Shown here one piece after another: positions 21,201 to 58,993 of a stretch of 64,000 bases of DNA (position 1 is the first letter of the stretch; each line of letters begins with the position of its first letter). The notes under the pieces were generated by a model. It was not told the DNA's origin. It saw only the letters and a list, made by a program, of their open reading frames with translations, and did no database searches. The DNA is from Liolophura sinensis (Eukaryota > Mollusca > Polyplacophora > Chitonida > Chitonidae), in NCBI RefSeq assembly GCF_032854445.1, contig NC_088301.1, positions 56,618,512 to 56,682,511 of the forward strand, read 5' to 3'. The position numbers were made by a program, and so were the translations under genes.

Positions 21201-22963
21201 ATTTGCAAAAAAAAAGTAGCTTGTCTTATTAAAGTAGCATGAAAACAATATATTTTTAATTGAACTATTTTTAGTAACATTATGATAAAAAATAATTTGG
21301 ATATTTATGTTAATGCAATATATACTATATTTTTATATTTAAAAACTTATTTTATTCAATGGGAGGAAAACATTATACGCCTATGTTTGTATTAATTTAA
21401 GAGCCGAGTGGCAAACTAAATTATAAAATAAGTTTGACCATTTATGGTATAAGTAACAAAAAAAAAAACACTTGGCAAGCAATAAATATACATCAATTCT
21501 GTGTGGTATCATATTACAAAACATGACATCTGTAAATGATCTTTCTGACACTGATTGTCACAAATCTCCAGTGGTATCACAAATACCAACACATCCCACT
21601 CATCCAGCACTTGACAAACATCACACCAGAAGTTGAAATATAACCATAACTTAAACACGAGATTCAGGTGCCTGCAGTTGTCAAGTTGGTTAGCATGTCC
21701 AGCTCAGGTAACCAGGTGCTGGCTGCTGTGAGTTCAAGTCCAACTCATGCTGGCTTCCTCTCCTAAATGTAGTGGGAAGGTCTTCTAGCAACCTGCGGAT
21801 ATTTGTGGGTTTAAAACCAGGCTCTAAGTTTTCTCCCACCATAATGCTTGCCACTGTCATGTAGGGGAAATATTCTTGATCACAGCGTAAAACACAAATT
21901 AAATAAATAAACAAATAAATCGGCTATTCATCACAGCACACCCAAATGAAGAATCTTTATTCACTTAGCCAGCATGGACTCACATCTGTATGTATTGAAA
22001 CCATGTAATTCAGAATATAATAAATTAATACTTGCCTCTGCTTCCCCTAATTTTTTCCTGCAAGTTATCTGCCACAAACTCAATCATGTCACCTTTTCTC
22101 ATTATCATTCCTTGCAAAGATGAGCCAAGGGAACTGATGTCACTGTCCACACTTATTTGGTCATCACTACTTGTGTCATCAGGAATTCCTGCCTTGAGCC
22201 CTTTGTGCCGATGCCGCTCATAGTACTGTAGAGGTTTCGGCAGCGATAAGCTATGTGGCCGATTTTGGGACCCACTCTCTAAACTGCTACTCTCCTGATT
22301 ACCATCATAGGCAGTTTCCTCAATATCTGTTACATCACTTGAACTATTCGTTTCTCTCACAACCTTTTCAGTGCTTTCACTTGCAGACTCACTTGGAAGC
22401 GCAGCCTTCTCTGTATCTGAGTTTGTGCTCTCACTTGTCCTTGACGTGTTGCGAGACCTGTTCTGTCCACTGTCACTGCTGTTTGTGATGGGCATTGTGT
22501 CTTGCACAATCTGGTCAGCAAACACATTATCACTACTTCCAGTTTTGCTTGATGCCTCAATTTCACCACTGTTTTTACTTGGATTTAAACTTTCCTTTGT
22601 GTTGTTGTCTGTGTGCTCACTTTCTGTCACTCTTGGAGACACCTTCCCACTGGTTTTCTTTGTGGGTTCTATCACCATCACAGTGCGTGTGTTGTTACAC
22701 CCCATACTCGCCTGACTTTTGTCCTTGTCTATTTCTTTGAGACGCGACTTGGTGGTGGATGGGGCGATGTCTGGCCTGCTTTTAACTGGTGGTACTGAGG
22801 CCGAACAACTCTGCTCCCCATTCACATGTAAAATAGCTGAAGTATGCTCATCTGTATTCTTTGATTTATCTGTAATACTCCCACTGCTTACACCTGTATG
22901 AGGCTGCTTGTCGCTGTTCCCATTGACCAAGCTATTTTCCAAACTGTCAGTTACTTCTGTCAT
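18271..22963 (-). CDS. BORCS6: BLOC-1-related complex subunit 6 (lyspersin)
   Basis: BORCS6 is a subunit of BORC, which recruits ARL8 to lysosomes and drives their kinesin-dependent movement. Exons on the minus strand: 22969-22036 (ATG at 22963-22961), 20124-19871, 18873-18790, 18420-18271. The N-terminal half is long, Ser/Thr/Asn-rich and probably disordered, ending with KGDMIEFVADNLQEKIRGSR. The conserved C-terminal domain reads IDPQAMQDLESQARVVADRV, MSAITVGTLDAYKHSVES, CEAVDASIK, then AMYALMAKCEELSTTVKPVY and QLADQ, a clear match to the BORCS6 family. Read through, the protein is about 471 aa, longer than the human protein because of the N-terminal region. Intron 1 uses a GC donor (AGAG/GCAAGT at 22036/22035), required by phase. 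The last 23 residues after QLADQ do not resemble the family, so the true end may lie in a further exon after a weak donor near 18345. Confidence 0.88.
20246..20367 (+). repeat. Dispersed repeat C, copy 2 (3' part)
   Basis: TTAGATAGAAGCCACAT, AGTGCTCATATAAACTAAAT, GACACAGAACTGTGAAAACC and TTTTCACCTG match the 3' half of the 13750-14085 repeat. Lies in BORCS6 intron 1. Confidence 0.65.
21671..21925 (+). mobile_element. SINE family A, near full-length copy
   Basis: Tail GCGTAAAACACAAATTAAAT with AAATAAATAAACAAATAAAT, body CTCCCACCATAATGCTTGCC and B box GTGAGTTCAAGTCCAACTCA. Located in BORCS6 intron 1, in antisense orientation to that gene. Confidence 0.75.
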
Positions 22964-23188
22964 AATGCTCTGGAAGAAAGAATAAGATAACCATAAATCA
23001 CTCAGATGGTTTGTTATTATGTTTTCAACACACTCAATATACATATGAAACTACAAACATCTTGAGGCCACCATCAAAATTTTGGACAACTTACAATGAA
23101 AATGAAATCCTCTCACTATGAATGAATCTGCCTCAACAAGTGTTTAGTTGTGGAATGTAACTCTGAAATCGATCACCACGAAGTGTTC

Positions 23189-27643: not shown

Positions 27644-30600
27644 ATGTATAAAATGGCCAGAAAAGGAAACAAGAAAAAACAGAAAAGTGAAATTGTACAG
27701 TTAGACTCCAATATAAGTTCTCATCAATGTAAAGACCCTGTGAGATCAGAAAACAGAAAGCGAAAAAGCCACAAGTTGGAAAGTTCAGTCAGAGAGACTA
27801 AACAAAGGCGGAGACAGTCTGAAGAAAAAGGAGATAATCAGAGTGAAACTCAAAGAGGAAAAGCAACTGTAATTGACACAAACTATGTTGGTGAAAGTGA
27901 AAAATCTGATGACAGTGTCAAAGAACAAAAAGTGTCTGACAGAACACGCTGTAAATCATTTCAAGATCTACCAAAGCCATCAGCCAGAAAGTCTCGGTAT
28001 AAAGCTCAGGAGCAGCAGTTACCACACTCTGTTGCTGATGGTGACATTCCACCAGTGAGGTAAGAATAAGACTATTCCTTGTGTTTGATCACCCGTGTAT
28101 CCTACAGGTGCACCCCATTTGTTCATATTTAAATGTTAGAGAGAGCCCTCTCTGGCCCATGCAGTGAAATTGCTGGTATCATTGCTGCCAATCAGTCTCA
28201 TCAATTCAAGGTCATGTGCTTGAATCTATCACTCACTGGTTCAATTTTTTTGGTTCATCCAGACTGAATTGAAATTTGCTTTGCTTTACAAGGCTTCAGC
28301 ATGACAGCTTACAGATCAAATTTTGAGCTTCGGGCTGTTTTGCCCATTTTAGACATAATCTGGGCTGTTCCTTTGTGTTAAGCCACATGTGAAGTAGTTG
28401 ATGGGCTGACAAGGCTGTAGTTTCAACTAAACATTTATTCAGGCCAGTAGTCGGACAGATGGGGAACACGTATTCCAAAAACAGTGCTTCCAGTGTGCTT
28501 GTTTTTGAACAGTATGTGGTAAATAGTAATGAAGCTTCTTCTGTAAGTGCCCAATGTTACAAAAACTCTTGAACTATGCTTGAGGGATGTAACATAGTGT
28601 TGTAGACTTTGCACCTGTAGGTGTATTTGTGTAATATGTTTACAGTTGTCCAGAACAAATACATTCCTGTTCCATTACCTGTGTCTTTGCAGGTGTATCA
28701 AGGTAGATGGTGGGTGTGTGCTGACTTTGAGCCATCCTGAGACTCTGAGTTTTCAAGGGAAAGCACAGGTAATGGTTCTCTGTGGAGAGGTCAGTGTGTG
28801 TGGCCACAGACTGACTGTTAAGTCACCACCAGTCAGCATATTCTCCCCGGTTTCTCACAGCTTACTGACTGTAACCAGTGAAAAGAAGCTGGGAATTGTT
28901 AACAAGAAGAAGATTGTGTCCAGTTGGGAAAAACATCAGCTGTGCGTCAAAGACATTGATAACATAATTCCTAATATTACAACAGATTCTGTTGTGCTTT
29001 TACTGAAAAAAGTTGAGAGCAGCTGTTGCAACTTCGTTTCCAAATTCTCACCATTTCAGACTCTGTTCACTAAATGCTCCATAGACCTGGAGAACTCTTT
29101 GTTTTCAGGTGTTAGAGATGTGTTAGGATCTATAGATGTTCAGATGGGCACTGCGATGGATACCATTCCACCTGTGATTAACATTCCTGCTGATTTCATA
29201 GCAGTGCAAGACAAGTGGTTGAGCATCTTAAAGGAAAAAGGTAAACAGCTGAATGATTTCATTCATTAATTTTTGGCCTGCTTTCAGTATTGTAATGATT
29301 CAATAAGGTTTGATGTTATCCAACACATTTTTGGTCAGATTGACCAATTTGAGCACCTGAATTTGTGGGCAGTCATTAATTAAACAAGAAGATAAAATTT
29401 TAAAAATTCAAAATAGTTTTATTGCTTTAAGTCAATCATTTCCAGATTTTGATTCACCGCTGTGCATGTGCATGTTTTTTGTCATTTGACAGTTTCACCC
29501 CAATTTCATGTAAAGCAAAGTTGGTTTTCAGATTCCATGTAATGCAGGTATACGAGAGGCTAGACTTCCACACAGCATAAATAATACAACAAATTTAGCT
29601 TTAAATTTAATTTGAGCTTTAAAAACTTGTACGAGTAGTCCAGTGTTAATGTTGTGTCGTAAAGAGACTTAAACACCTTAAACACGCTGGTTTTTGTAGT
29701 AATGAATAAAGGCTATCTTATGGTTGTTTTTCGTGCAAGCTTCATATAGATTTTATTACTGCAATTTGTTAAGAAGAAATTTGTGGTATGAGTGTGTGAT
29801 AAGCAGTTAATGATTATATTGCAAGGCACTTATTTATAATTCCAGTTTTAGAATATTTGTGTTTCAGATGTTGCTCCAAAAGCTTTATCATGTGGTGGGA
29901 AGAATGTTGGGAAATCAACCTTCAATAGATATTTGATTAATTCAACACTCCAAAGGTATATACTTGCATAATTATAGATATATGCAGTTGATGTGAGTTG
30001 AAGTCCAGTTTATGCTGGCTTCCTCTCCAGCCATACGTAGGAAGGTCTGCCTGCAACCTGCGTATAGTCATGGGTTTTCCCCTGAACTCTGTCTGGTTTG
30101 CTCCCACCATAATACCGGCCGCTTTCATATAAGTGAAATATTTTTGAGTACAGCATAAAACACCAATCAGATAATTCATTTATAAAGCTTTAATATATCT
30201 CAGTTGATTACTGTGTCATAGTACCTCTTACAGGTGCATATAATCTTTATGCGTGCAGATAATGCACCAGTGATAATAATACGACAGTGAAGTTTGAATC
30301 ATGATCCAGCTACAGGAGATGCTTAGTGCAACTGTGGCCGTGCTTTCCTGATGATAAACACATTATAATTCGTGATTAAAACTTTTTTCTTAGGAATATA
30401 TTTTGGAAGATGAGAATGCTCAATGTGCTCATGGGTAAACTTTGTGAAGTTGTGTCTTAGATATATTCTGTTACCCCTCCAAAGAAAATAGCCATGCAAG
30501 AGTAAGGGACCTGTCTTCCCTGTCACATGTTATGTAGGCTGTCACATGTTCCCATATATGCATGTATGGGTCATCACACTATGGTCACAATAAAATGATC

Positions 30601-33600
30601 TCCTGTGAATATATTAGAACCTTTTAACTAGATAAAGTGGTTGTTTGCTTCCCATTTGATATTATGATATTTTTAGGATAACCAATCTAGACAATATGAA
30701 TTTAATTTAGAAATTCATGACTTCTGAATGTAAAATTTTATGGCAACTTTATTCTTCTGTTTACCTTTTCTTGTAGAGTAAAATCTCTGTGTTACCTGGA
30801 CTGTGATGTTGGACAGACTGAGTTTAATCCACCAGGATGTATAGCTCTCCATGTTATCCATGAGCCAGTTTTAGGTGAGCTTTTCTCCTTTTGAGAACAT
30901 TCTCCATGCCCAGAGTAAATCATTCAAGTACATGATTTTTGATTAAAGAACTTATTAACAAGAAATCCTCAGAATATATCATCAGTGTGAATATCAGTTC
31001 AAATAATTATATTTCAGGTCCCCCCTTCACTCATCAGCAAGATCCGTTCTTGTAAGTACCTTCCATGAACCTACACTTAACAGGGTGGCTGAATTTTTTT
31101 TACCAGACAGTGTTTGCATGATGCAAACTGATACCAATTAATACATCTATTCACAAGGCTCTGTGCATGTATATGAGATTTTTGTTGTTCTGTTAAAAAA
31201 TATCAAAGTAATAAATACAGATCCGAATGTTTTACTCACCAAAAGGTTAAATGCTACATCTACATGCAGGTACTGTGTGATCATTTACTGAAATATTTCT
31301 ATTTCAGCATGTGTTTCTTTGGCCTGGTATCCCCAGCAGAAGACCCAAGATTTTATAGCTCTTGTATGAAGAAGGTGTACAGTCAGTATGAGAGCATGGA
31401 CCCCAAACCCCCACTTATCATCAACACCATGGGCTGGAACAAAGGTGTGCCAATTTTGCGCTATCTAAAGCTCATTGGGTTGCAGAAAACAGATGTGTAC
31501 CTAAACCCAGATGTTCTAGGACTGAAAATTTAGATTACTAACCTCATTCATAAAGACATGCAGTAAATCAGTTAAGCATGCACCCAACAAAGCCATCTTC
31601 AGATGTCTGCCAAAAGAGAAGCATAGATCTTCAGTAGGAAAATCATTGCATTTGAAGGTTTAAGACCATCGTTCGCAATTTGCACAAAGGTTTGAAGGCC
31701 AGGGTATGTTTTGGTGCTGAATAATTCACAATACAAACGATACATATAGTTTAGAAAATGTTTCAGTGCAATAGCTGATCAATGCCACTCTTGCCAAAAC
31801 AAATATAATTTTGCTTTATCAGGAGTAAGATGCAGATGTCTTCAGTCATCCTCTTATGTATACCTTCTAACAACCGTTAAATAAAAAATTTAGTTTGACT
31901 CAAGATAATATTGAAAATTTAAATGGATTTATCATCTTTTTCTGCTCAAGGTCTTCATAAGTGAAGGTTAAATGTTACAATCACAGGTTAAAGTGTTTCA
32001 ATTCAATATGTCATTAGAAAATGATTAGGCATCAGTTGTTGTTTACTTTCAGGCTTGGGAATCAACCTTCTGGTAGATACCTGTCACATTACCTGTCCAG
32101 ACTTAATCATACAGCTGGAATCCATGAACCAATCAAACAATTTCCCTGCTGTTACACCTGATTTTCTCCACTATTCACCTGGATGGCTGTTTAACAGAAA
32201 TGCTGAAGTAAGTGCTGACACCTTCCTCTGCATGTCTTGACTTTGCTTGTTTAGTCTTTTAGTTCTGGTTTATACGTACGTTTCATTATAACATTTTAGA
32301 TACGTGTACTGCTGAATTTGTACTTGTTCTCGAAGACTGTAATTGTTCAAGATTGTGCTGCATGGTACTTATGTGATAATATTTGTCACCTGATGATGTT
32401 TAATCAAATGTTGTGATTTCTTTTGGCAGTCTGATGAGGAAGAACACAAATTCAAACATGAGTTAATAATAGTGGATTCACCTGTGGTTCCAAACATAGA
32501 GTAAGTTTCTGTTGTAAATTCTTTTGTACTTTATATATTGATTAAGATATTTTTCTCCCAATCTAAGCTTTAAGCTTTTAAGACTAATTGAATGAATGAA
32601 TGGATGGATGGATGCTTGGGGTTTTACATCGTAAAACTAATTGATGCATAAGTAAAAGTATATGTATAATCTTGAATGAAAGCATGGTAATAGTTTTTGT
32701 AAGGGGAAAATTTGCACAAGCTTTGTGACATGTCCTGCCCATTTTTTCTGTTTCATGGCAGAAATTTTTGGGTTACACCTTAACCTTTGATCTTTTTCCT
32801 TGCAGAAGCCAATTACGATTCCATTCCAGGGATCATCGTGATTTAACAACCCTGGGTTACATCTCAAGGTGTCTGAGGTCAGCCCAGGGACTACAGGAAG
32901 TTCAACCATATTGTGTACCGTGGAAGCACATAGCCCTCCACACCTGTCACCTGGCTGTCCCACCCTCACAGATTCTGGCTGCATTCAATGCCAGCTTTGT
33001 GGCCCTATGTGTGACTGATCACAGCAAGGTGGGTGAAGATCAACTGTTCTACATCTCAAGATATGCTATATCTCAAGAAAATTCTTCTAAGTTTTGGGAC
33101 AGATATTCATAGCACTGAAAGCAGAATATTATACTTCTTTTCCAGTTTTTTGGAAAGGTAAAGATGTTAGTATGTTGTTCATTAGATGGCCTAACCATGT
33201 GAGAAAAAAGAAACTAAATATTCCTGCTACAGATACATGTATATTGGCTTAAAAGAACTGACCAGGTGTCCCAAAAATTAGAAGAAATAGGGTATTCCAA
33301 AAAAAAAAGGGAAAAATAATATTTTTGGTTGAACAAGATTCAACCAGCTTCTGCCCATTTAGACACTCTTGATATGTCATCTGTCTGGACATTCAACAAG
33401 ACACAGTTAAAGAGAACTGAATCATTAATTTTCACTATGTGTTGTGAATATCACTCTTCAAGTTTTCAGAGACCAGTATCCACACTTATGCTTAGCTTGA
33501 ATGCTATACTGGGGGAACAAATCTTGTTTTAATAAAACATTTCAGGGGTGGCAACTCAGTTGCTACTACAGAGTACTATGTGTAGTGTCGTTCTTCTGTG

Positions 33601-46112: not shown

Positions 46113-49100
46113 ATGGCAATCCGTGGTTTCTACACCTATAAGGTTTTCATCATTGCGATGGGTAAGTACCTTACAAAGCTTGGGTTTAATAAATATTCCA
46201 TAAGAATAGATAACCGCGACGATCTGTAATGTTTAATTACATATGCGCAATTGTCGATTTAGCTCACATATCAGACTAAGCACGTTGGTGTAGAGGAAAT
46301 GCTAGGGCTTAGGCCTATAAGTATATACAAGCTACTAGTATATTAAGAATCTAGTTTTGAGTCGTGAAATCCATCAGCCAGTTTTGTTAAAGATAAAAAA
46401 AAGTTGCTTAAATACTTTTATGATCTACGTCTACCAAATTTGTCAGCAGTCAACCAGTCGTCGTTCTTCTTTTTTAACTTAACTTGATTCGTTCTTGTTT
46501 TGACATGTATGCTGTACACGACATTGTGTAAATGCCTGGGTTCCATTAGTGATCAGTGCTTACCCATGTGCCCCTGAACATCTTTTATAGAAAAGATCCA
46601 GGAAATGTACATTTTTTATGCAACTTTGACTCTCGTTCTGTTACTTATACGTTCATGCGCATGGGTCAGATGAGGTCTTTACACCACACAGGTATATACT
46701 CTTTAAACCTTTTGCACCTTCACAGTTTGTTATGCTTTAGTTTATTTTCAACTATAATTTTGCTCATTATTAGATCCTGATGGACTTTTTCCATGTGCAA
46801 ATAATTTACCAAATTTTTGTGGACAAATTCGTCATAATCCAATGTACGTAATCCGGTGCTAAGTCCGTTAGTGCAACAAGTGTCTCAGAATTTTGATGAC
46901 CACATTTCGGATTATTTATAACTTAGGACACACTATCGCTGACACTCCCTATCATACCCTATATATAGTACATGAATATATACAGTCATCTCATGGTTTA
47001 ATTACATTTGCAATAGAATAGGCCTTTGATTTTCTTCACCTCACCTTAATTCAACCATGTACCTAATCTGTCTTCTCTGTCTCTTCTTTTACTGTTTTTT
47101 AACAACGCTCCTGTGGCTAAGTGCTGCGTATCAGTATAGAGTTGATTTATTTTACTGTGCAGGTTAGATACCGTATTCATATGAGACGGTGAAATATAAT
47201 CATCGCCAGGTATAGACTGTTGTACCGAATGCATGGTGGTTACAACATTTAGGGTCAAATTGGCACAAAAATACCGTTTCCCCAAGAGCGAAATTTTTAG
47301 TTGTAGCTCACTCATAATTTATGTGGATAAATATCGGTGTTGACTCCAATGATGTAAATGCTACACAAATAAAATTTCAATCGTCTTCCAGAGCATAGAA
47401 TCGGTAGTTTTTTTACCCCAGCTGCTAGTACCAATATTCAGAGAATTTGTACCCGAGGATGAGACATTGAAATTATGTATACAATGGTGCATAATATGGT
47501 TAGGTGTGTTTTGAAAATACGAGAGTACCAAAGGTTGACATGCCGGTGTCAGAAGGATTGGGAAGTACGCGTGTGTGCTTTGGGCGAGTCAGCGATAACC
47601 CATTGACCCGTACTTCGTTGTGGCGCTGGGATGAAGTACCCAATTCGGCTAAACTCTCATGGAATTAGTTATCACAACAGTAGACGCTGGTACCATTGAG
47701 CCATTTTTTGGAAGAGAAGGGAGATATGTGTTCCAGACAGAAAACATCCCAATTCATGCAAAGATTCATTCTTAATCACACTGTACTAATACCATGTAAA
47801 AACTAAAGAGAATCTTGTCTAGCACTGACAAGGTTGGGTCATCCGGTATATCTATATGACCGCTCACAAACCACTTCCGCGCAGACTATTTCCGCTCCAG
47901 CTCATATCTTGCAAAATAAATGTCTGTATGCTAATGGTTCACTTATACATGACTTGTATGCATGGGAATACCTTATATTATATATATTGGTTAATAGCAC
48001 AAACGAAAGTAATCGACTCTCTGTCGTCCTCTATATTTGCAATAATTCCACTTGCCAATGTGCAGATGTATGTAAGAGACATTGTATATCAGAATTTGGG
48101 CATACTTCCTCCTCGCCAGTCAGGTTTTATTAGTTTACAGACTTAACGTTTTAGAAAGTTTACTGGAAAATGGTACCGACTAATGCAAATATCAGCTTGG
48201 GATACTTCAACTTCCCATTGTACTTACAATGATATGCGTGTATGTCTATTCATATGGGGTATACGATGGACATCTTTTCGTAATAATGGACACAATTAAA
48301 AAGTTAACTTCTGGACCATACACTCTTGCTGCATATTTTAGTGTTAAGCCATTTGATGTTATCACAATCCGGCTAGTGGTGTTGACAGCCTGGAACCCTG
48401 ATGGCGACCGGGACGTCAGGGGCGCACAAGGCTCAAATGACATACGACCCTGTTAATTCGCCATTTAGACAGGATCGAGGCGGCATGGTCCAGATGGTTT
48501 TTGTTCATCTGATCATCACTATTTGTTGATAGTATCAAAAGAGAGCAGATGACCTCTCGTCATGCGGCCTGTGTCACTCTTTGTTTGCTTATCAAATATT
48601 TAAAACATCGCAAACAAGCTTACTTGCGCTGATGATGACGGATGTTGGGTGCAACCCAGAGGTTAACAAGAATTCTGTATAAACTATGTCCTGTCGCTGA
48701 AACAACGTTCTGGATAATCACCGAATCAGAGAATGCATCCATAGTTTATACATGCCTTTTTGCATTCAGTCATTGTAAATGTATAAAAATGTCACCAAAA
48801 TTCCTAGATAATGTCAAGTTAAAATGAGATCTTCAACAAAATGGTGTTTTGTGAGGTTTTAAATGATGTTTTACTTCGTACACAACTCTTTATTGTTGAA
48901 ATATGAAAAAATGTGCATAGCATATACCCAAACAATATGCATCTTTTATATTTAAGTGAATCATCAGTTAAGATTTATATATAGGGTGTAAATAAATCTA
49001 CCGCCCTTCGTCAGCTAACAGGAAGCTTTTTTGACACAGAACAACTCCTCCATGCAGCAAGATCTGCATTCGAACAGGCGACCCCAAATTCTCGTGGGTC

Positions 49101-52100
49101 GATGGTATGTACCTCTCATAGCGAAAGAGGTATACACCCATTGCTTGAGGAGACCAAGTCGCTGTAAAACTTACACTTTAAACTTGGAGTGAGGCATAGC
49201 ATAATAGCATGCTGCTGTACATATAAATTGCACATGCCTCTGGGTTTTAAACTTTAAGAGATTAAATGCAATTATTAGTGAAGTCAAAGTGCATGTATTT
49301 TTGATTCTTGTCTTTTCCCTTTCAGTTTCGCTTTTCCAGAGTCAAGATGTCACAGGTAAGAAAAACAGTTTTATCCATACGAACCGAATCGATCATATCC
49401 AGTACATTCAATATTGGCGTACCTGGCAATTATAGATGCCTATATACGATTAGGATATAATAAATCTATAAAAAGTTACTACACACGTGCTTATGTTCAA
49501 ATTAATGTTATTTCACTAACGAATAATTTGTGGTCATAAATCACTTATGATATGATTTGTTTATGAACTACATGATATGCTAAAGTAACTATTATAGTTG
49601 TTTTAGACAGGCTGTTTCTGAGAAACCAAATTAATATTTAATCTAGAATTATATCGATATCAATAAACATATTATCGATACATATTTATAGATATCTATA
49701 AATAATTTATTGTTGTCGATTATTCTCGATTACGTGTTTATGTGGCTCCTCCAAGACACGATGGCCATTACGAACTTGTACTGTTGTTGACAGCTGACCC
49801 ATGCGCGTTAACCACCACTCTTGATGCTTGGGAACGGGATATAACTCTGGCGTTATCCAGTCCGGATCGGGGGTTGTGCGATCGAGGCCTCTTGGAAGGA
49901 TGGTACATGTTCGAGAATAAACAGAAACCCATGCAGATTCCCACACAATGTCTCCGAGTAAGTCATCTGGTCCAAATATCTAGTGAAGAATGTCCATTCA
50001 TGCAGGTGGTATATATGCAATGAAGATGCCAATCTCATTGGCCAAACTGATGTCTGACAATTTGTGGTTTGATTTAAGAAACAAGATGGTCTCAAAGAAG
50101 AAAATGAAATTACTTTAGAAAGCAATTACATCATAATATGTATTACATTCCCATACTGGAAGCTGTCAAAGGTACGATATAAGGCATAGATAATTCATCG
50201 CGCCAAAGATTTAGTCCAGTTGTGGTTTTAGTCGGCTTTGTACTATATGATCTGTGTTTCTGTCAATTTTGTGTGACCTGTTTTTAATAGCCTTAACTTA
50301 AGCAGTTATAACGCATTAAACAGTTGGCCCAGGCAGTGGTTAGAACAGTATTTGAATACAGATTTCAATCTTTCACGTAGAACATTCCTTGTGCCTTTTT
50401 CAACATCATTGAAAATTGTTGACTGCTTCCCTTTGCTAGATTTTCGAACTTTATACACTTTCTTGTTTCTTTAGTTGTCTGTGTTAAATGTAGTTTTGGG
50501 AATTGTTCCGGCGATTACCGACCTGGAATTTTGGTTGACGGCTGATATATATGAATGAATGTCGGTGTCGAGACATAGATTGCATACCAATTTTTGTAAA
50601 GGCAGATGTATAAAAGGGAAATGTAACTGGTAACGTTTGGGTATTGATTCTTGAAACATCCAGTCATTTATTACTTTTTCTGTATACTTGATTTCGAGAC
50701 TTAATCAGGGCCAAAGAAGATATACACTTATATGAGGTAAACAAATTCCTGGGATCCGATTTCTAGAATTTTGTATGTCACTATAAAATCAAGTCTGGTT
50801 CCTCTTCGTTCCTGGATCATGTCCATTGGTGCGTGGGACCAGTTTTTGTGAACGGCTTGTCGAAAGACAACATGTATCACCTTGAGTCATTCTGGAGTTG
50901 CCCCTGCAGTCCACTTTATGGTCTCTTCAGTGGATATGAACATATAAGAAGCTATTGTCAGGAGAAGCTATTGCCATGTGCAAATAGCTGGTGCACCAAT
51001 CCAAAGGAATGTATAAAGAGAAACAAAATTTCCCCAAAATACACAATGTAACAAAATTAAAGACAAGAATAAACAAATACAATGTAAACCAAATAATTCG
51101 GGAAAGTAAAGAAGAGGTTAATTTGAAATGCTGTTATACCTTGAATACCAGTAATGTACTAAAGTTATCTACATGTATATATCAAGCCAATGTAAAAGCT
51201 GGTTGATCTATTACCAAGCCTTTAAACAAGCATTCGTTTGGCCCTATCGACTAAAGCTTTTTCATACAGTTTGTAAACTTTAGCAAAGTCGCTACACTTA
51301 CTAAACATACTCCAAGACTGCCTGGAATAGTAAGATGGTGATAAACAAAGGAGACTATGTATGTACATATATGTTCTTGGCCTGAAATGAGTCCTGGGAT
51401 ACGTGCGGATGTGATGAGGCTATTGGAGCACGACACTGGGCTGTTTAAAATGAGTATGTGTTTCATATTTTTGAGTGTTTGTGTGTCGCAAAGCGAGCGA
51501 GGTTTTTGTTTTAGAGCTATATGAGTGAGTCAGTTTCTTAGAAATACACTAACATCCATGTATGGACACGCTGATTATGCATGGGATCGTATATTTTGTC
51601 AAAATCTTGTTCCTAGATTTATAAATATTTGGAGGATGAGTTAATCACATCTATCTTCAAAATCTGGAGTTAGGTGGGGCTCTGTTTGATAAGACATGTT
51701 TATTTCCAGCTCTTGAAACAGAACTAAAAGCCTGAGGTTAAGTTAGTAAGGAGGTCTACTCCCTTATTTGGGCGGCAAATGCCAGGATGTCAACTTATCC
51801 ACCTCATTAAAACTCTCCATTTAGGGTTGGCTGCATTCCTGGATGACATAGATATCCTAAAAAAATGTGTCATATAAGGCGGTTCTTTTACAGAAAACCA
51901 AAATTATTTCCTTTCTCTGATATCCCTTTTCCCAACATTCTGATATCTTACATCACTTCAATGCACAATATTTCAACGAGAGTTTCATATATACATGGTT
52001 TCCTTATATTTTTCAAACTTAAGCCAGAACATTAATGTTTGCTCCTTTAACTTTAACAACACCTGATACAGCTAAGCCAACCATTTCCTCCTTCGCCAAT

Positions 52101-55100
52101 TTTTCTTCCAAAATACTACCGCTATGCAATTAAACACACACAATTTTCTGTATTTTTTCTCTTAAAATCTTGTGTAAACAAACGTGAATTTTACCACTAA
52201 CATCAACAAGAACCACTATAAAATTTTAACACTACAGATACAGTAATACCAGATTACTGAAAATACCAGATAACTAAAGAAATTTAGTAATAAAGAATGA
52301 CTGGACTGTCCACAGGAATATCAAACATGGAGTAGGTTTCAAGTAGATACAATTCCCGATGATGGGAGTGATAACCAGTGCTACTTGGAGCCTTCGTGGC
52401 TTAGTGGGTTAGCGCGATAGCGCAGCGTAATGACCCAGGAGCCTCTCACCAATGTGGTCGCTGTGAGTTCAAGTCCAGCTCATGCAGACTTCCTCTCCGG
52501 CCGTAAGTGGGAAGGTCTGTCAGCAACTTGCGGACGGTCGTGGGTTTCCCCAGCCCGGTTTCCTCCCTCCATAATGCTGGCCACCGTCGTATAAGAGAAA
52601 TTTTCTTGAGTATGGCGTAAAACACCAATCAAATAAATAAATAAATAAACCAATGATACTTCATGTTTTAAATGTGAGGCTGTAGTTTTAGAGCCATGGT
52701 CTTTACCAGGAAGCACTAAATACTTCATACTTCTAGACATAAGTTGTGTCTACTAATTCATGCCAATGTTAACGTTGCTTTTAACATCATTTTCTTGGGT
52801 GATGTATCCGTGTATATCCCTTTGTAGCAGACTTTTGTAAGTGTTAATTGACCACACCACGAATGACTGGTACATTCTTGTGTGTAGCTTATCGACAAAT
52901 GAGAAAGCAAAAAGATAATCAAAAGAGCCAACATTGGGTTGAACTCCGGTCTCTTGTTCGTGAGGATAATGGTTTAACCACTTGGCCATTGCACCTGGGT
53001 GTATTCATGTAGTGCAATAAAATTTTCCGTCTTACAGGACATATGCGGGCCTACAAAATATGCACAGATTGTTATTAGCAAAACCACAGTTTTAAACTCT
53101 TTATTAATGGACATTTTTACAGCAAAACATATGTGGGACCGGATTGCCATACTGGCTGGACCTTGGTGAAGGGGGAATGTTACCTGGCCAAGGTCAACAG
53201 GTGAATGCTTCCTTCTGCGCCTCTTTTGATGTGCTCGGCTCAGTAGACTGCTGTGTGCTGAGAATGCCAACTCAGGTGCACAACTGTGGTAATGGCTTTG
53301 CGTACTACCTTCGGCCGACGGACAGATGCCCTGTTGCCTACTGCGCTTACGGTAAATAGTTGACTGACATGCACATCTCATAAATTCATATAAAATGTGT
53401 TTATTATTACATTGAGCTTTAGCTTGCCTGCAATGTTCATGCACAAATGCAACCTGAGAAACAGGTATAAAGCATTAAGCACGTATTGTGTGAATAATTT
53501 TCAATTGTGAGCTTTTGCCATGAACTGTTGTATACTGAAATTTTTCTGTTCGGGTTACAATGTCAATAACTATACCGGTACCAAATATGATGTGGTAACT
53601 AGATGCACTACGCTGACAGACCCTGGATTCTGGACGTTGCACAAGGAGATAAAGTGATGTTAGGATTATGTTCTCGACTGGTGTCTACCATGTGCTTAAG
53701 AAAACTTAAGCGCTACATATGACAACAGAAAGGGGGTCACCAAACCCTGAATTTGAAATAAGGCTGCAGACATTATTTATCAGGGACTGTCTCTTTGGAG
53801 AATTCATAATATGGCTTCACCATTGTGTCACCTTCTTGCTAGGGAGAAAACATTGCAGTTCCAACATCTGTTTATGAAAATCCGCTGTGTTCTTGTCACT
53901 GCTCTTGTTTGTAGATCCAACACAAGGTTTGAACTCAATGTACATTACACAAAGAGGTCAGAACTCTTCAGAACTGACAACGCTTGGGCCAGCAAGTGAT
54001 GCAAGCTCTGGTGAGTACTAAAGCCTAAATCAGAAAGTGTAATGAAAATTGACTTTCAGAACTGGCAGTTACCTTTACGAAATTACATGTGTCAAAAATT
54101 CAAGAAATTAAATTATTCACACGTCACAGTGGATAGGGAAAGTAAGAACATTTTTATTAATGCACTTGATTAAACGTGTCCATGTCAGCTTTATCTAAAA
54201 TGTTATTAAAGTACATATTTACACAAACCAGTAAGAATAGATGCAAAAGATGAAAATGTTCGTAGATACTGCTCTTAATATCATCAGTAAACTCAGTACA
54301 CAATTTTGCTCCGATTCTGTAACTAGGTGATGATGTTAAGCCCACGAAAGGTAGCACAAAACCTGGTGTAACAGAGCTGAAAAGTACTACACCAGTTTCC
54401 ACTGAAGCGAGGACATCAGTTGCCCAAGACTTAGTCCTTAATGTAACCAGTTCAGCAACACCTGGCCCTGAACAAGGGAAAGATTCTTCCAATGACTCAT
54501 CAGCTTTACAGGACTCCGGGGATGTATCGCCAGGTGACCTGGCAAGAGTGATACAGTCGGGTGATCAGGCACCTGAGAACAAGACTGTCAATAGTACAGT
54601 GGAGAGCATCACAGGTGTGCAGAGCAATGTGGACAGCAACCAGACTAGCAGCCCTACAAGTGTCAACCTTTCTCCAACATCCACAGCTACTTACGATCTG
54701 GGTTTTGAACAGGCTGGCTCATCAATTCTAGACAAAACAGTCAGGGTACCCAACAGAACTCCTTCTACCCCAGATACAGCTGCACAAGCCACTACAGTAG
54801 GTATTTATCCAGGTGAGATGTTGGTGGAGCCCACCCAACCATCGAGTAAAGCACCCTCGGTTACAGACAGTGACGCTCCAATGGATGCGGCTACCAAAGC
54901 TTCCATAACATCAAAGACGGCAGTGCCAAAAGTAACCGTAACGATCTCTACAATGCAGCAACAAACTACAAAGCCAGGTCCAGTCACACCTGTGTCAGGA
55001 ACAGTCTCAACTGTGAAAACAGATACACCTGGATCAGTGGAAACACCTCCAGAAGTTGCAACCAAAGCTTTGGAAGTTGCGACTGAGGCAGCAACCAAAG

Positions 55101-58100
55101 CTTCGGTAGTAACACCGGCTAGATCAACATCTGCGAGATCAACACCTGTAATTGCACATTCATCTACTGTACATGATCAGACCAGTGCTGCTACCATCAC
55201 AGTGCTTAATCAGACAGTGACAAAACCTGTCCCGTCAACAAATTCAGAAGCCGGGACCATAAGTCAGAAACAAGTTACACAGGCTCCTCAGGTAATGCAG
55301 AATTTCTTGGTTTGGACAAAATCGTAAATTGTTTCTGAAACAAAAACTGAATAAAACAACATAACAATAATAAATTGGCCGACATAATTATCACATGAAA
55401 AACATACCCTTTTCATAAAGAATCAATTTGAACACTAAGACGAATAAAAATTTGGTTTAATTATCAAATTAAGAAAAACATCTGTACATTAAATCGTCTC
55501 ATTTGCCAGTCTGTATTTTTCAGTGTTTTTCCATTTGACAAACAATGATTCTTCCTTGTAACTGTGGTATTCTTTCAGAAACTCGAGATAAGGTATTTGA
55601 ATCCACGAAGTATCATTAAATCTTTACAATTGCTTTTGATAAATTTATACTTTTTCCCCAGTTAGGACATTATGTTTGCTGTGGTAATTGCAAATGCTTC
55701 TTACTTGACAAAAATACTCCATATATCTTTATAAACTGACATTAAGAAATTATAGACAATTTTTTGGTTTTACTGCAGACTGGAACTATTGATCCTTCTG
55801 TCATTGCCAAAGAATCTATTTTGTTGAAAATTACAGGTAAAAAGGTAAGTAAATTCAGAAAATTTGTCTAAAGGAAAGTGGGCGTGTGTCAGAAAAATTT
55901 TTTAGCATGACAATTTGAACTGTAAATTGTTGTCAATAGTCAATGCTAACTTTACATTTCATTTGGGTACATTTTGGATCAGGAACTTAACTTTGGTGGC
56001 AAAGCTACCAAAGAGCTCACATGCAAGAGACAAATGAGAGGCAAGAGTTCAGTTCAATACATGAAGTTGTGAAACCTTAACATGGATTCAAATACAAAAA
56101 ATTTATACCATGAATTTTGTAATTAGGGTAAACACTGAAGGCCTTAACATGAAATAGCACATTCTCCTCATGTTATTGTGCTTGCAGGGCTCTTTGAAAT
56201 ACATTAACATTTATCTCAACATTGATACTAATGTACAATAGACAAAATCTTGAATTTTTCATTTCACTGTAATTAATATGCACACTCGCAATCACTAATG
56301 GAACATATCCCTCATGTTATTCTGCTCTACATATATGCAAAACATTAGCTCAATAAATGCTGTAGTTAAGATACCACCCCTGACATTTAATTCAACATTG
56401 GTTTCCCTCTTACTGGAAGCCGATACCAGTTGTATGACATATACTACTTTGTATTGGCGAGCTAAACAACAAAGCAAAATAGTTTTTTACTTGATATTAC
56501 TTAATATGGTTACATCCTGTCAAGTGAAGACTATGAAGCTCTGTCTGCCTAATAAAGCTCCATTCAAATAATGTCATGTATTTATTGGTATTTATACACT
56601 GCACTCAGGAATTGTTCACCTATGCACAATGACGAGTTTTAAAGGTAGAGACATCATGCCATTTATTGTAATAACTTGTGCATGTAGAAGATTATGTGAT
56701 CTTAACCTCTCTAAAAGAAGACTAGGAGAGATTTTCTTCAACCAAAAGGAAGCACCACCTTTTCATGAAACGTTAAAAGTAGTTTTAGTAAGCTCACGTT
56801 AAACCTGGGATATTCTCTTGAATTGAATATTGTTTTTGCAGATAACCTCTGAGAGAGTCAAAGAAGCTTTGATTCAAGGTATCCTACGCAGGTGTCAAGT
56901 TGGTTTACACACGGCGTCACATTCAGTCAAACAGGTGTTTTTCAAGTACAACCTTTGTGACACATTTTCCCGAAGAAAGCGAAGAGAGGCCACAGGCTTG
57001 GAGCCTGTGCTGACAGGGTCATTTAATGATGAATCTGGAACTTTCCACTCTAATGTAGCCTTAACTAAGACCAATGGCACCAGTGGTGAGTTACAGCTGT
57101 TAAACAAACTCAGAATGCTGACTGACTCGTGCAAGTAGGGTTTTCTTTCTTTCTTTCATCTCAAGCTTGATAAGGTTACAAAACTGTCCCGATCATAATC
57201 AAGGCTGGTGGTACTAGTATTACTTCGAAGCAGAATTTTATCTCAGATTTATAACTGCCATGATACTAATACAATGTACCAAAATAATAAAAACTGAGGG
57301 AAAATTCCATTGTAACAAATCCTTAATTGCATTGCTTTCATTTACATGCAGTGACCGAAATATTTCTCTTGTCGAGGAAAAGAAAAAAAAACTAAACGAA
57401 TGTATCGCGTAACCTAACTTGATCCACTTGAGATGCAGTCATGAAGCCTTACATTTGCAACATTTTGTTCTTCCAGTCAGACATATTTGGCTATTTTGAT
57501 TCTGTATCAGCTAATAAATCTCAAATAGCGGATATCTCATATTGTGGTATTTTGTCTTTGTGCAGCTACCGTAATATCCCAAGAAGATCTACTGACTCTA
57601 TTCCAAGATGAGGAAATTGCAGACACATTCCTGTCCGAGGTAAAAATTGTTGGTAGAGAATATACCGTGTACATACTTGTATTTCTGGTGTTGTTCCATA
57701 CATGATACATGAATGTGTCTTTCTTATTTCAAATTTGGTTATTCTGTGCAACTCAAGGGGCATATACCAATGTGACATCTCTCCACACTATACTTTGCCA
57801 TGAACATTATGTCAGGTTTGTGCTGCGAGTGTTTTGTAAGTCGGGCACGAGGAGTATAGAATAGTTGCTTTGGAAATTCTATAGTGTCCTCTACTTTTCT
57901 GAAATAGCCATTTAACTGAGCAATATAGTAACAATTTATGGCAGATGGTTCACATGGATGTGTTGGCCAAAGGGAGTGATTCCAGAAAATCATTTATTAG
58001 ACATAATTTTAAAAAGAAGTGTACTTCAAAGTTGCATTGTACGACCCAAAATTACAAAAAAAAATGTTTTATTTAGGTTGGGGTGTCGGAAGCAGAGGTA

Positions 58101-58993
58101 TGTGCTCAGAAGACTGGCGACTGCAAAGTTGTGAAATCAACAAACAGTACCTCCCACAAAGAGATCCACATCAAGGAAGGGGAGGATACCTTTCGTTCAT
58201 ATCTTACCCTGATCATTGCTATGACCGTGATAGGCTCTCTGTGCCTCATCATTATCATTGTTGGCTTGGTGTACATGAGGTGCTCAAACCGTGGGAGCTG
58301 GAACAATGACTATAACAGCATTGTAAGTCTGCACCTGTGTATCTGGTTAGCGTACACAAATGACAGGGATCAGGCCCTTGGATCATATAACTGTCTTAGA
58401 CATAGGTAACATTTAACCTTAACACTAATGTTTAGTTTTGTCAAGAGGGCCCAAGACAACTCATAGTGTCAAACTAAAAATCCTTAAAATAATCACTATT
58501 TTAGCGCAGTAAACTGTTTGAAGTTAAGAATAAGTATGACTGAAGTCTTAGATAGCTTTGTGATCAGAGCCTTTTAGAAATATTTCCCACATTAACAGCA
58601 TGGTATGTCATCTTGCATGTGATAAACTCAGAAATGATTACCATGTTATCACAACTGATTTTAACACCCAAATCATCCCGAATTAGATTTTAGGATTTTA
58701 AATCTCAACTGTCATCCGGACATTTTATGTCAATGCCACAGTTTATCACATAGGAACGATCCCGACTGGATGGCAAGATGAAGAACACCAGTGCCATTGA
58801 GAACCCTGCCTCCGATGCAGAAATCATGAAAGATGAGGGAGAAATGAGAGAGAAAGATGGTGATCCCTTGACCTCTGTGAATGGCAGCCCTCATTGCAAC
58901 TACCCTGACGATGACAATGGCTGGGTGGTTCCTTATGATCAGTTGACCATGGAGGAACGAGCCTTACCAGGAGTGGCAGACACCAAGTTATAA
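46113..58993 (+). CDS. Membrane sialomucin: D8C domain plus podocalyxin/CD34-like tail
   Basis: Eleven exons join in phase: 46113-46161, 49326-49355, 49794-49957, 53123-53351, 53915-54010, 54327-55291, 55779-55844, 56842-57085, 57566-57639, 58077-58322, 58754-58993 (about 800 aa). Residues 1-25 form a signal peptide (YKVFIIAMVSLF core). Residues about 28-157 are a uromodulin/GP2-type D8C domain: DPC, CDRGLLEGWYMF, TQC, ICG, FC, DCC, C, RCPVAYC, matching family cysteine spacing. Residues about 158-511 are a Ser/Thr/Pro-rich mucin region with N-glycosylation sites (NST, NQT, NRT). Residues about 512-680 form a globular region with four cysteines (about 551, 572, 648, 655) and RRKRR at 577-581. 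A TM helix lies at about 682-705. The tail has ENPASDAEIMKDEGEMREK, VNGS, DNGWVVPYDQLT and terminal DTKL, closely resembling podocalyxin/endoglycan tails (SWIVPLDNLT, DTHL), which bind NHERF PDZ proteins. Likely a cell-surface anti-adhesive or epithelial polarity protein. The tail homology is inferred by eye. Confidence 0.85.
46162..49325 (+). other. Intron 1 of the sialomucin gene, nothing recognised
   Basis: This 3.2-kb intron separates most of the signal peptide from a 30-bp second exon. It is AT-rich and holds only short open frames without conserved peptides; a GC-richer patch lies near 48370-48480. No SINE of family A or B was seen. Confidence 0.6.
52386..52650 (+). mobile_element. SINE family A, full-length copy
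   Basis: GAGCCTTCGTGGCTTAGTGG (A box), GTGAGTTCAAGTCCAGCTCA (B box), CTCCCTCCATAATGCTGGCC (body), GAGTATGGCGTAAAACACCA, then ATCAAATAAATAAATAAATA tail. In intron 3 of the sialomucin gene, on the sense strand. Confidence 0.85.
52924..53000 (-). repeat. tRNA-like pseudogene or SINE head
   Basis: Reverse strand contains AATGGCCAAGTGGTTAAACC (A-box like) and, about 40 bp later, CCGGAGTTCAACCC (B-box like). The outer stem does not close into an acceptor arm, so this is not a functional tRNA gene; it is more likely the head of a third tRNA-derived SINE. In intron 3 of the sialomucin gene. Confidence 0.45.
56575..56632 (-). mobile_element. Fragment of SINE family A 3' end
   Basis: ATTTATTGGTATTTATACAC, CACTCAGGAATTGTTCACCT and the following bases are a diverged reverse copy of the family A terminus (TTGGTGTTTTACGCTGTACT, CAAGAATATTTCAC). 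In intron 7 of the sialomucin gene. Confidence 0.5.

Follow-up and report, generated by a model that had tools for sequence, protein, structure and literature searches.

CD34 and podocalyxin have been studied mainly as vertebrate proteins of blood, vessel and kidney. The present study concerns a possible relative of theirs in the chiton Liolophura sinensis, a gene for a putative single-pass surface mucin at 46113-58993 (+) of a 64,000-nucleotide window of contig NC_088301.1. The window is the whole stretch of forward-strand DNA analysed, and coordinates given without a contig name are positions in it. An earlier annotation made from the sequence alone (the original prediction) had described an eleven-exon gene, joining a uromodulin-type cysteine domain to a mucin with a podocalyxin-like tail.

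The same domain plan, together with an ezrin/NHERF link, has been described for the podocalyxin family (PMC8227556). Podocalyxin has two cysteine pairs, endoglycan one and CD34 three, and the C-terminal ends in the CD34 family are DTEL or DTHL (PMC10220851). The DTHL end of podocalyxin recruits NHERF-1, and its ectodomain drives the formation of microvilli even without the tail (PMC1796660). In zebrafish podocalyxin the transmembrane (TM) segment is encoded in exon 7 of 8 (PMC3819108). The other end of the chiton protein may be compared with GP2, whose domain is a D10C with ten cysteines (PMC8930769).

No invertebrate member of the CD34 family was seen in the literature, and no combination of D8C with CD34 was seen in the D8C-domain literature (in both cases titles and the starts of abstracts, among the matches listed). 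Podocalyxin is reportedly mentioned five times in the text of a study of the Caenorhabditis elegans excretory tube. The explanation that we favour, with reasonable though far from complete confidence, is that the chiton locus encodes a podocalyxin-like surface mucin whose DTKL end is tied to the PDZ/ERM cortex and which bears a D10C head.

Similarity of the transmembrane segment and tail to the CD34 family

The CD34/podocalyxin family had been named in the original prediction before any search was made, and a match to the Pfam profile CD34_antigen (PF06365) was indeed found. The whole protein scored 25.4 bits (E 1.6e-5; curated cut-off 26.3), while two pieces of it exceeded the cut-off, residues 512-800 with 27.8 bits and residues 681-800, comprising the TM helix and tail, with 28.0 bits. 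Shuffling the ectodomain preserved the match in three of three cases at 25.5-26.1 bits, so that ectodomain and stalk contribute about 2 bits. Scrambling the tail (residues 707-800) had the opposite outcome, with CD34_antigen listed for none of the 12 controls (three shuffles and one reversal in the longer piece, eight shuffles in the short piece); the juxtamembrane stretch is scrambled along with the rest in these shuffles, so the distal tail is not isolated by them. HMMER filters drop most matches above an E of about 0.1, and "not listed" is therefore not equal to a score.

Truncation of the TM-and-tail piece from its C-terminus gave 19.5 bits to residue 721, 19.2 to 748, 26.2 to 776, 26.2 to 792 and 28.0 at full length. 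The distal tail contributes 8.5 bits, with a gain of 7.0 bits from the stretch 749-776 (EMREK..VNG) and of 1.8 bits from the last eight residues. These scores indicate that the match rests on the helix with its juxtamembrane stretch, on the EMREK..VNG block and on the C-terminal end. Thus, among the tail motifs originally aligned with podocalyxin and endoglycan, the EMREK..VNG block and the C-terminal end add to the score, but ENP and GWVVPYDQLT add none on their own. The original prediction was to fall if the tail similarity did not rise above background; with none of the scrambled tails listed and 8.5 bits from the distal tail, it was not refuted on this point. Judged by these profile scores, the match stands above background and is borderline when set against the curated cut-off.

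Four features of the CD34 family were found in the chiton protein, namely a profile match over TM and tail (in pieces), tail similarity that extends beyond the helix, a Ser/Thr/Pro-rich mucin domain and a C-terminal D-T-x-L PDZ ligand, here DTKL. Exon 10 of 11 encodes the TM segment (over about 50-82% of its length), and most of the tail is encoded by exon 11, the intron between the two being in phase 0 after residue 721. The tail is probably homologous to that of the CD34 family, beyond mere likeness, and membership of the protein in the family is probable.

A search of the 609-Mb chiton genome with the CD34_antigen profile (E <= 10) yielded four places, all below the cut-off, and the mucin locus ranked first with 23.4 bits (window 58017-58310). 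Of the other three, L002 (21.0 bits) looks like a tandem-repeat tract when the frame list is inspected by eye, and no gene was seen by eye in the frame list of L004. L003 (C13, around 5409465; 17.8 bits) is, likewise by eye, an EGF-type gene with a TM segment and a C-terminal ERLI, which we take to be probably Crumbs; its CD34_antigen match was regarded as background. Searches of the genome for paralogues of the tail or of the membrane-proximal region matched only the mucin gene's own exons. Among PDB sequences (phmmer) the C-terminal piece found only five NPY receptor TM matches, at E 0.89 or worse, and a search of NCBIfam yielded nothing at E <= 1.

The N-terminal D10C head

The chiton protein opens with a signal-peptide-like segment, recognised by eye, and continues with a domain that matches the Pfam profile D8C_UMOD at 34.8 bits when the whole protein is searched and at 40.2 bits as a domain piece (cut-off 27). 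The "D8C" domain of the original prediction thus stands above the curated cut-off, but its label required correction. Ten cysteines are present at residues 30-155, spaced 25,24,6,28,11,1,11,14,5 compared with 22,22,6,25,7,1,11,15,5 in GP2 (GP2 cysteine numbers from PMC8930769), and both domains begin with D-P-C and share a C-D at cysteine 2. On this pattern the chiton domain is a complete ten-cysteine D10C. No match to ZP, the module of the uromodulin/GP2 polymer proteins, was found in the 800 residues (Pfam, E <= 10), and the D8C piece had no match in the PDB sequence search (phmmer).

Six places in the genome matched D8C_UMOD at E <= 1, three of which (on C4, in the mucin gene and on C1) scored over the cut-off; two bacterial controls also matched, under the cut-off. 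The copy on C4 is divided between two frames, close to where the domain is also interrupted in the mucin gene, and its halves, joined by eye at an approximate border, score 55.1 bits. At the locus on C1, L008 (C1:85900000-85909900), an Asn/Thr/Trp-rich, mucin-like repeat frame and a TM segment come after the D8C frames. No CD34-like tail was seen in the stretch read at L008, where the frame stops just past the TM segment at a TAA that is a possible splice donor. D10C heads on membrane mucins may therefore occur twice in the chiton genome, the C1 locus being read from its open frames. L008 adjoins further frames that, by eye, we presume to resemble a Ty3/gypsy-type pol.

Gene structure

When the region was reconstructed one exon at a time, the 11 exons gave 2403 bases and an 800-residue frame (Table 1). 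All ten donors are GT and all ten acceptors AG, with compatible intron phases throughout, which confirms the eleven-exon reading frame originally proposed; the predicted protein layout of a signal-peptide-like start, cysteine domain, mucin, four cysteines, TM and DTKL tail was likewise recovered. By approximate splice-site scoring matrices, all ten donors fall at or above percentile 96.3 among the GT sites of the window. Seven of the ten acceptors reach at least percentile 93.7, and those of exons 6, 10 and 11 are weak (72.6-82.5). Stop-free runs of 321 codons are rare, with about 0.001 expected by chance in the window, and the mucin frame is therefore unlikely to have arisen by chance. A model without exon 3 lost both the frame and the signal peptide, and inclusion of 49794-49957 restored the frame. 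Exon 5 runs from phase 1 to phase 1, so that skipping it leaves the reading frame unchanged, and it is the least certain exon of the model. That the whole of 46113-58993 is one gene, which would be read as a single transcript, forms part of the favoured explanation and carries the same reasonable confidence.

Table 1. Exons and protein features of the chiton mucin gene
Feature	Position in window	Strand	Content
Exon 1	46113..46161	+	Start codon, first part of signal-peptide-like segment, residues 1-16; donor percentile 99.0
Exon 2	49326..49355	+	End of signal-peptide-like segment; acceptor and donor percentile 99.9
Exon 3	49794..49957	+	First half of D10C: DPC start, cysteines 1-3
Exon 4	53123..53351	+	Second half of D10C, cysteines 4-10; D8C_UMOD 31.9 bits in genome search
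Exon 5	53915..54010	+	Linker / start of mucin region
Exon 6	54327..55291	+	Ser/Thr/Pro-rich mucin region
Exon 7	55779..55844	+	Start of membrane-proximal region
Exon 8	56842..57085	+	Membrane-proximal region, cysteines 551 and 572
Furin-type site RRKR	56971..56982	+	Residues 577-580, in exon 8
Exon 9	57566..57639	+	Membrane-proximal region
Exon 10	58077..58322	+	Cysteines 648 and 655, juxtamembrane stalk, TM helix, first 15 tail residues
TM helix	58200..58277	+	Residues 681-706; 19-residue hydropathy maximum 2.9
Exon 11	58754..58993	+	Rest of cytoplasmic tail, EMREK..VNG block, stop codon
GWVVPYDQLT	58919-58948	+	Tail motif in exon 11
DTKL	58979-58990	+	C-terminal end, in exon 11

Two introns contain repeat-like sequence. 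In intron 10, at about 58408-58568, lies a dispersed repeat, matched at 71-83% identity by at least 39 scored places elsewhere in the genome. A stretch of intron 3 at about 52390-52650 is, by eye and from box A/box B motifs, presumably a tRNA-derived SINE, and similar-looking frames occur in L004 and L007. Elsewhere in the window, open frames at 28598-29266 and 31177-31530 (+) match Cupin_NOL9 (84.4 bits) and CLP1_P (32.1 bits), and they probably belong to a gene for the polynucleotide kinase NOL9, which lies upstream of the mucin. A Ser-rich open frame of 341 residues at 22028-23050 (-) had no Pfam match at E <= 10.

Mucin region and proposed mode of action

Residues 158-511 are rich in Ser and Thr (31% S+T, 9% P) and would form a rod of about 350 residues, presumably glycosylated. 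The "sialo" part of the sialomucin originally named found no support, since GT29 and CTP_transf_3 had no match in the genome and the match of NeuB (17.9 bits, E 0.56) stayed below its cut-off; an exon-wise search of this kind can miss split domains, and absence is not implied. Among the bacterial controls CTP_transf_3 matched 11 of 14, NeuB nine of 14 and GT29 none, which makes the GT29 search uninformative.

The chiton mucin most likely works in the manner of podocalyxin. A tie of the DTKL end to the cortex, with the rod as a spacer, is proposed by analogy with the NHERF-1 recruitment and the microvillus-forming ectodomain of podocalyxin (PMC1796660). DTKL, a class I PDZ ligand, would bind a PDZ adaptor and the juxtamembrane stretch an ERM protein, and this link would anchor the mucin in the apical membrane or in that of microvilli. 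There the bulky rod would space neighbouring membranes, a possible anti-adhesive role, and shape protrusions. The D10C head would sit at the tip, on the outer face of the coat, where it may present or bind ligands; its model would be the decoy module of UMOD and GP2, which presents a glycan. A profile search located ERM C-terminal exons at two places in the chiton genome.

Weighing of alternative explanations

Several results weigh against the podocalyxin-like reading, and some of them would fit convergence, that is, an unrelated molluscan membrane mucin whose helix, charged tail and PDZ ligand score on CD34_antigen by chance. Such a protein, too, would be a mucin tethered to the cortex, though no relative of CD34. 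The whole-protein score is 0.9 bits below the curated cut-off, and the TM segment with 15 juxtamembrane residues alone yields 19.5 of the 28.0 bits. CD34_antigen was no longer listed when the TM segment was masked by X or replaced by that of L008, or when the tail (93 residues) was searched alone. The genome-search match at 58017-58310 takes in 60 bases of intron 9, reading across a stop codon, and its lead over the repeat tract is only 2.4 bits, with the Crumbs-like frame attaining its 17.8 bits in the same search. L008, the second locus with D8C, repeat-rich and TM parts, is without a CD34-like tail in the stretch read, its frame ending at the possible donor. The four cysteines near the membrane (residues 551, 572, 648 and 655) are present as predicted, but homology of the domain drawn around them found no clear support: the ectodomain piece gave no profile match to this region in Pfam, its predicted model, folded without an alignment, was poor (pLDDT 44), and none of 343 Foldseek matches of that model in the PDB reached E <= 0.001. 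To these points may be added the lack of sialic acid enzymes over the cut-off in the exon-wise search, with its liability to miss split domains, and the failure to find EBP50_C, the NHERF C-terminus, in the genome, which is uninformative as the controls matched nothing either. Convergence is countered by the naming of the family ahead of the search and by the 12 scrambled tails, none of which was listed. It is also countered by the 19.1 bits that are left with the TM segment shuffled (one of one) and the 20.8 bits with the Crumbs-like TM of the chiton's own genome swapped in, as well as by the coincidence of independent family traits (four cysteines, mucin, DTxL end and exon layout). On balance convergence seems to us rather unlikely, though it is the most serious competitor of the podocalyxin-like reading.

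A different objection is that two neighbouring genes have been fused by the model, exons 1-4 coding for a secreted D10C protein and exons 5/6-11 for a CD34-like mucin with a start of its own. In its favour, the join passes through the frame-neutral exon 5 to the weak acceptor of exon 6 (percentile 72.6), and ATTAAA occurs at 54107, 54169 and 54205. However, the intron phases match exactly across the join, the stretch from exon 4 to exon 6 showed no AATAAA, and 49958-54326 holds no signal-like start followed by a strong phase-1 donor, although this last point has little weight because the start of the gene itself likewise escapes the filter. A fusion of two genes is improbable. The furin-type site raises a further reading, in which the two can both hold, as it is compatible with the podocalyxin-like mucin favoured here. 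Besides RRKR at residues 577-580, no R-x-[KR]-R occurs in the 800 residues; this lone site is flanked by two of the four cysteines on either side and suggests a cleaved form. Cleavage of the receptor in the secretory pathway would fall within a SEA-like four-cysteine domain and leave the mucin ectodomain attached to a stub in the membrane; the ectodomain would be shed or pulled off, and the stub would signal or be recycled. Notch and the SEA mucins are the parallels. The low-confidence model places RRKR in an inter-strand loop and has an order of strands and helices compatible with SEA, but its pLDDT is far too low to carry the point. Moreover, apart from the Foldseek result already given, no SEA domain was named among the best 50 of the 343 matches, and a SEA profile match was absent (Pfam). 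A furin-cleaved receptor of this kind is considered unlikely, if only a shade more so than convergence.

Significance and comparison with known proteins

The chiton gene hints that the CD34/podocalyxin family may be older than the vertebrates, and the extension of the family to protostomes raised in the original prediction is, on the evidence of this one animal genome, a possibility. If the favoured explanation is true, a mollusc gene with a CD34-type tail plan would date the link between mucin and cortex to early bilaterians, making it older than glomeruli and vertebrate-type blood stem cells. The gene would also offer a system for asking what the first role of the CD34 family was, and it would place D10C, a domain known for glycan presentation, at the tip of a CD34-like mucin. 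A more speculative scenario, which we regard as tentative and on present evidence doubtful, is that the family predates the split between protostomes and deuterostomes. Its early members would then have been headed by D10C and cleaved by furin in the cysteine domain, and the vertebrates would have kept the tail and the cortex link while the head was lost or replaced.

Four known or neighbouring systems bear comparison with the chiton protein. L008, in the same genome, resembles it in having D8C frames, a repeat-rich frame and a TM segment, and differs in the lack of a CD34-like tail in the stretch read. Uromodulin, GP2, OIT3 and VWDE share with it the complete D10C and its ten-cysteine pattern, whereas the chiton protein is a single-pass mucin that, besides ZP, has no EGF or VWD match at the same threshold. 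Endoglycan (PODXL2) has the same kind of tail and also a non-glycosylated N-terminal sequence (PMC10220851), although that sequence is glutamate-rich rather than a D10C, and there is one cysteine pair in place of the four cysteines of the chiton protein. Podocalyxin differs from it in the absence of the D10C head, and the cysteine region of the chiton protein, unmatched by any profile, encloses a furin-type site, a trait read on the chiton side only. The two nevertheless agree in the mucin rod, the four-cysteine region, the TM segment in the penultimate exon, the tail ending in D-T-x-L and the profile match over TM and tail, an uneven pattern of conservation that is to be expected if, in a mollusc, no more than the TM segment and tail can still be recognised.

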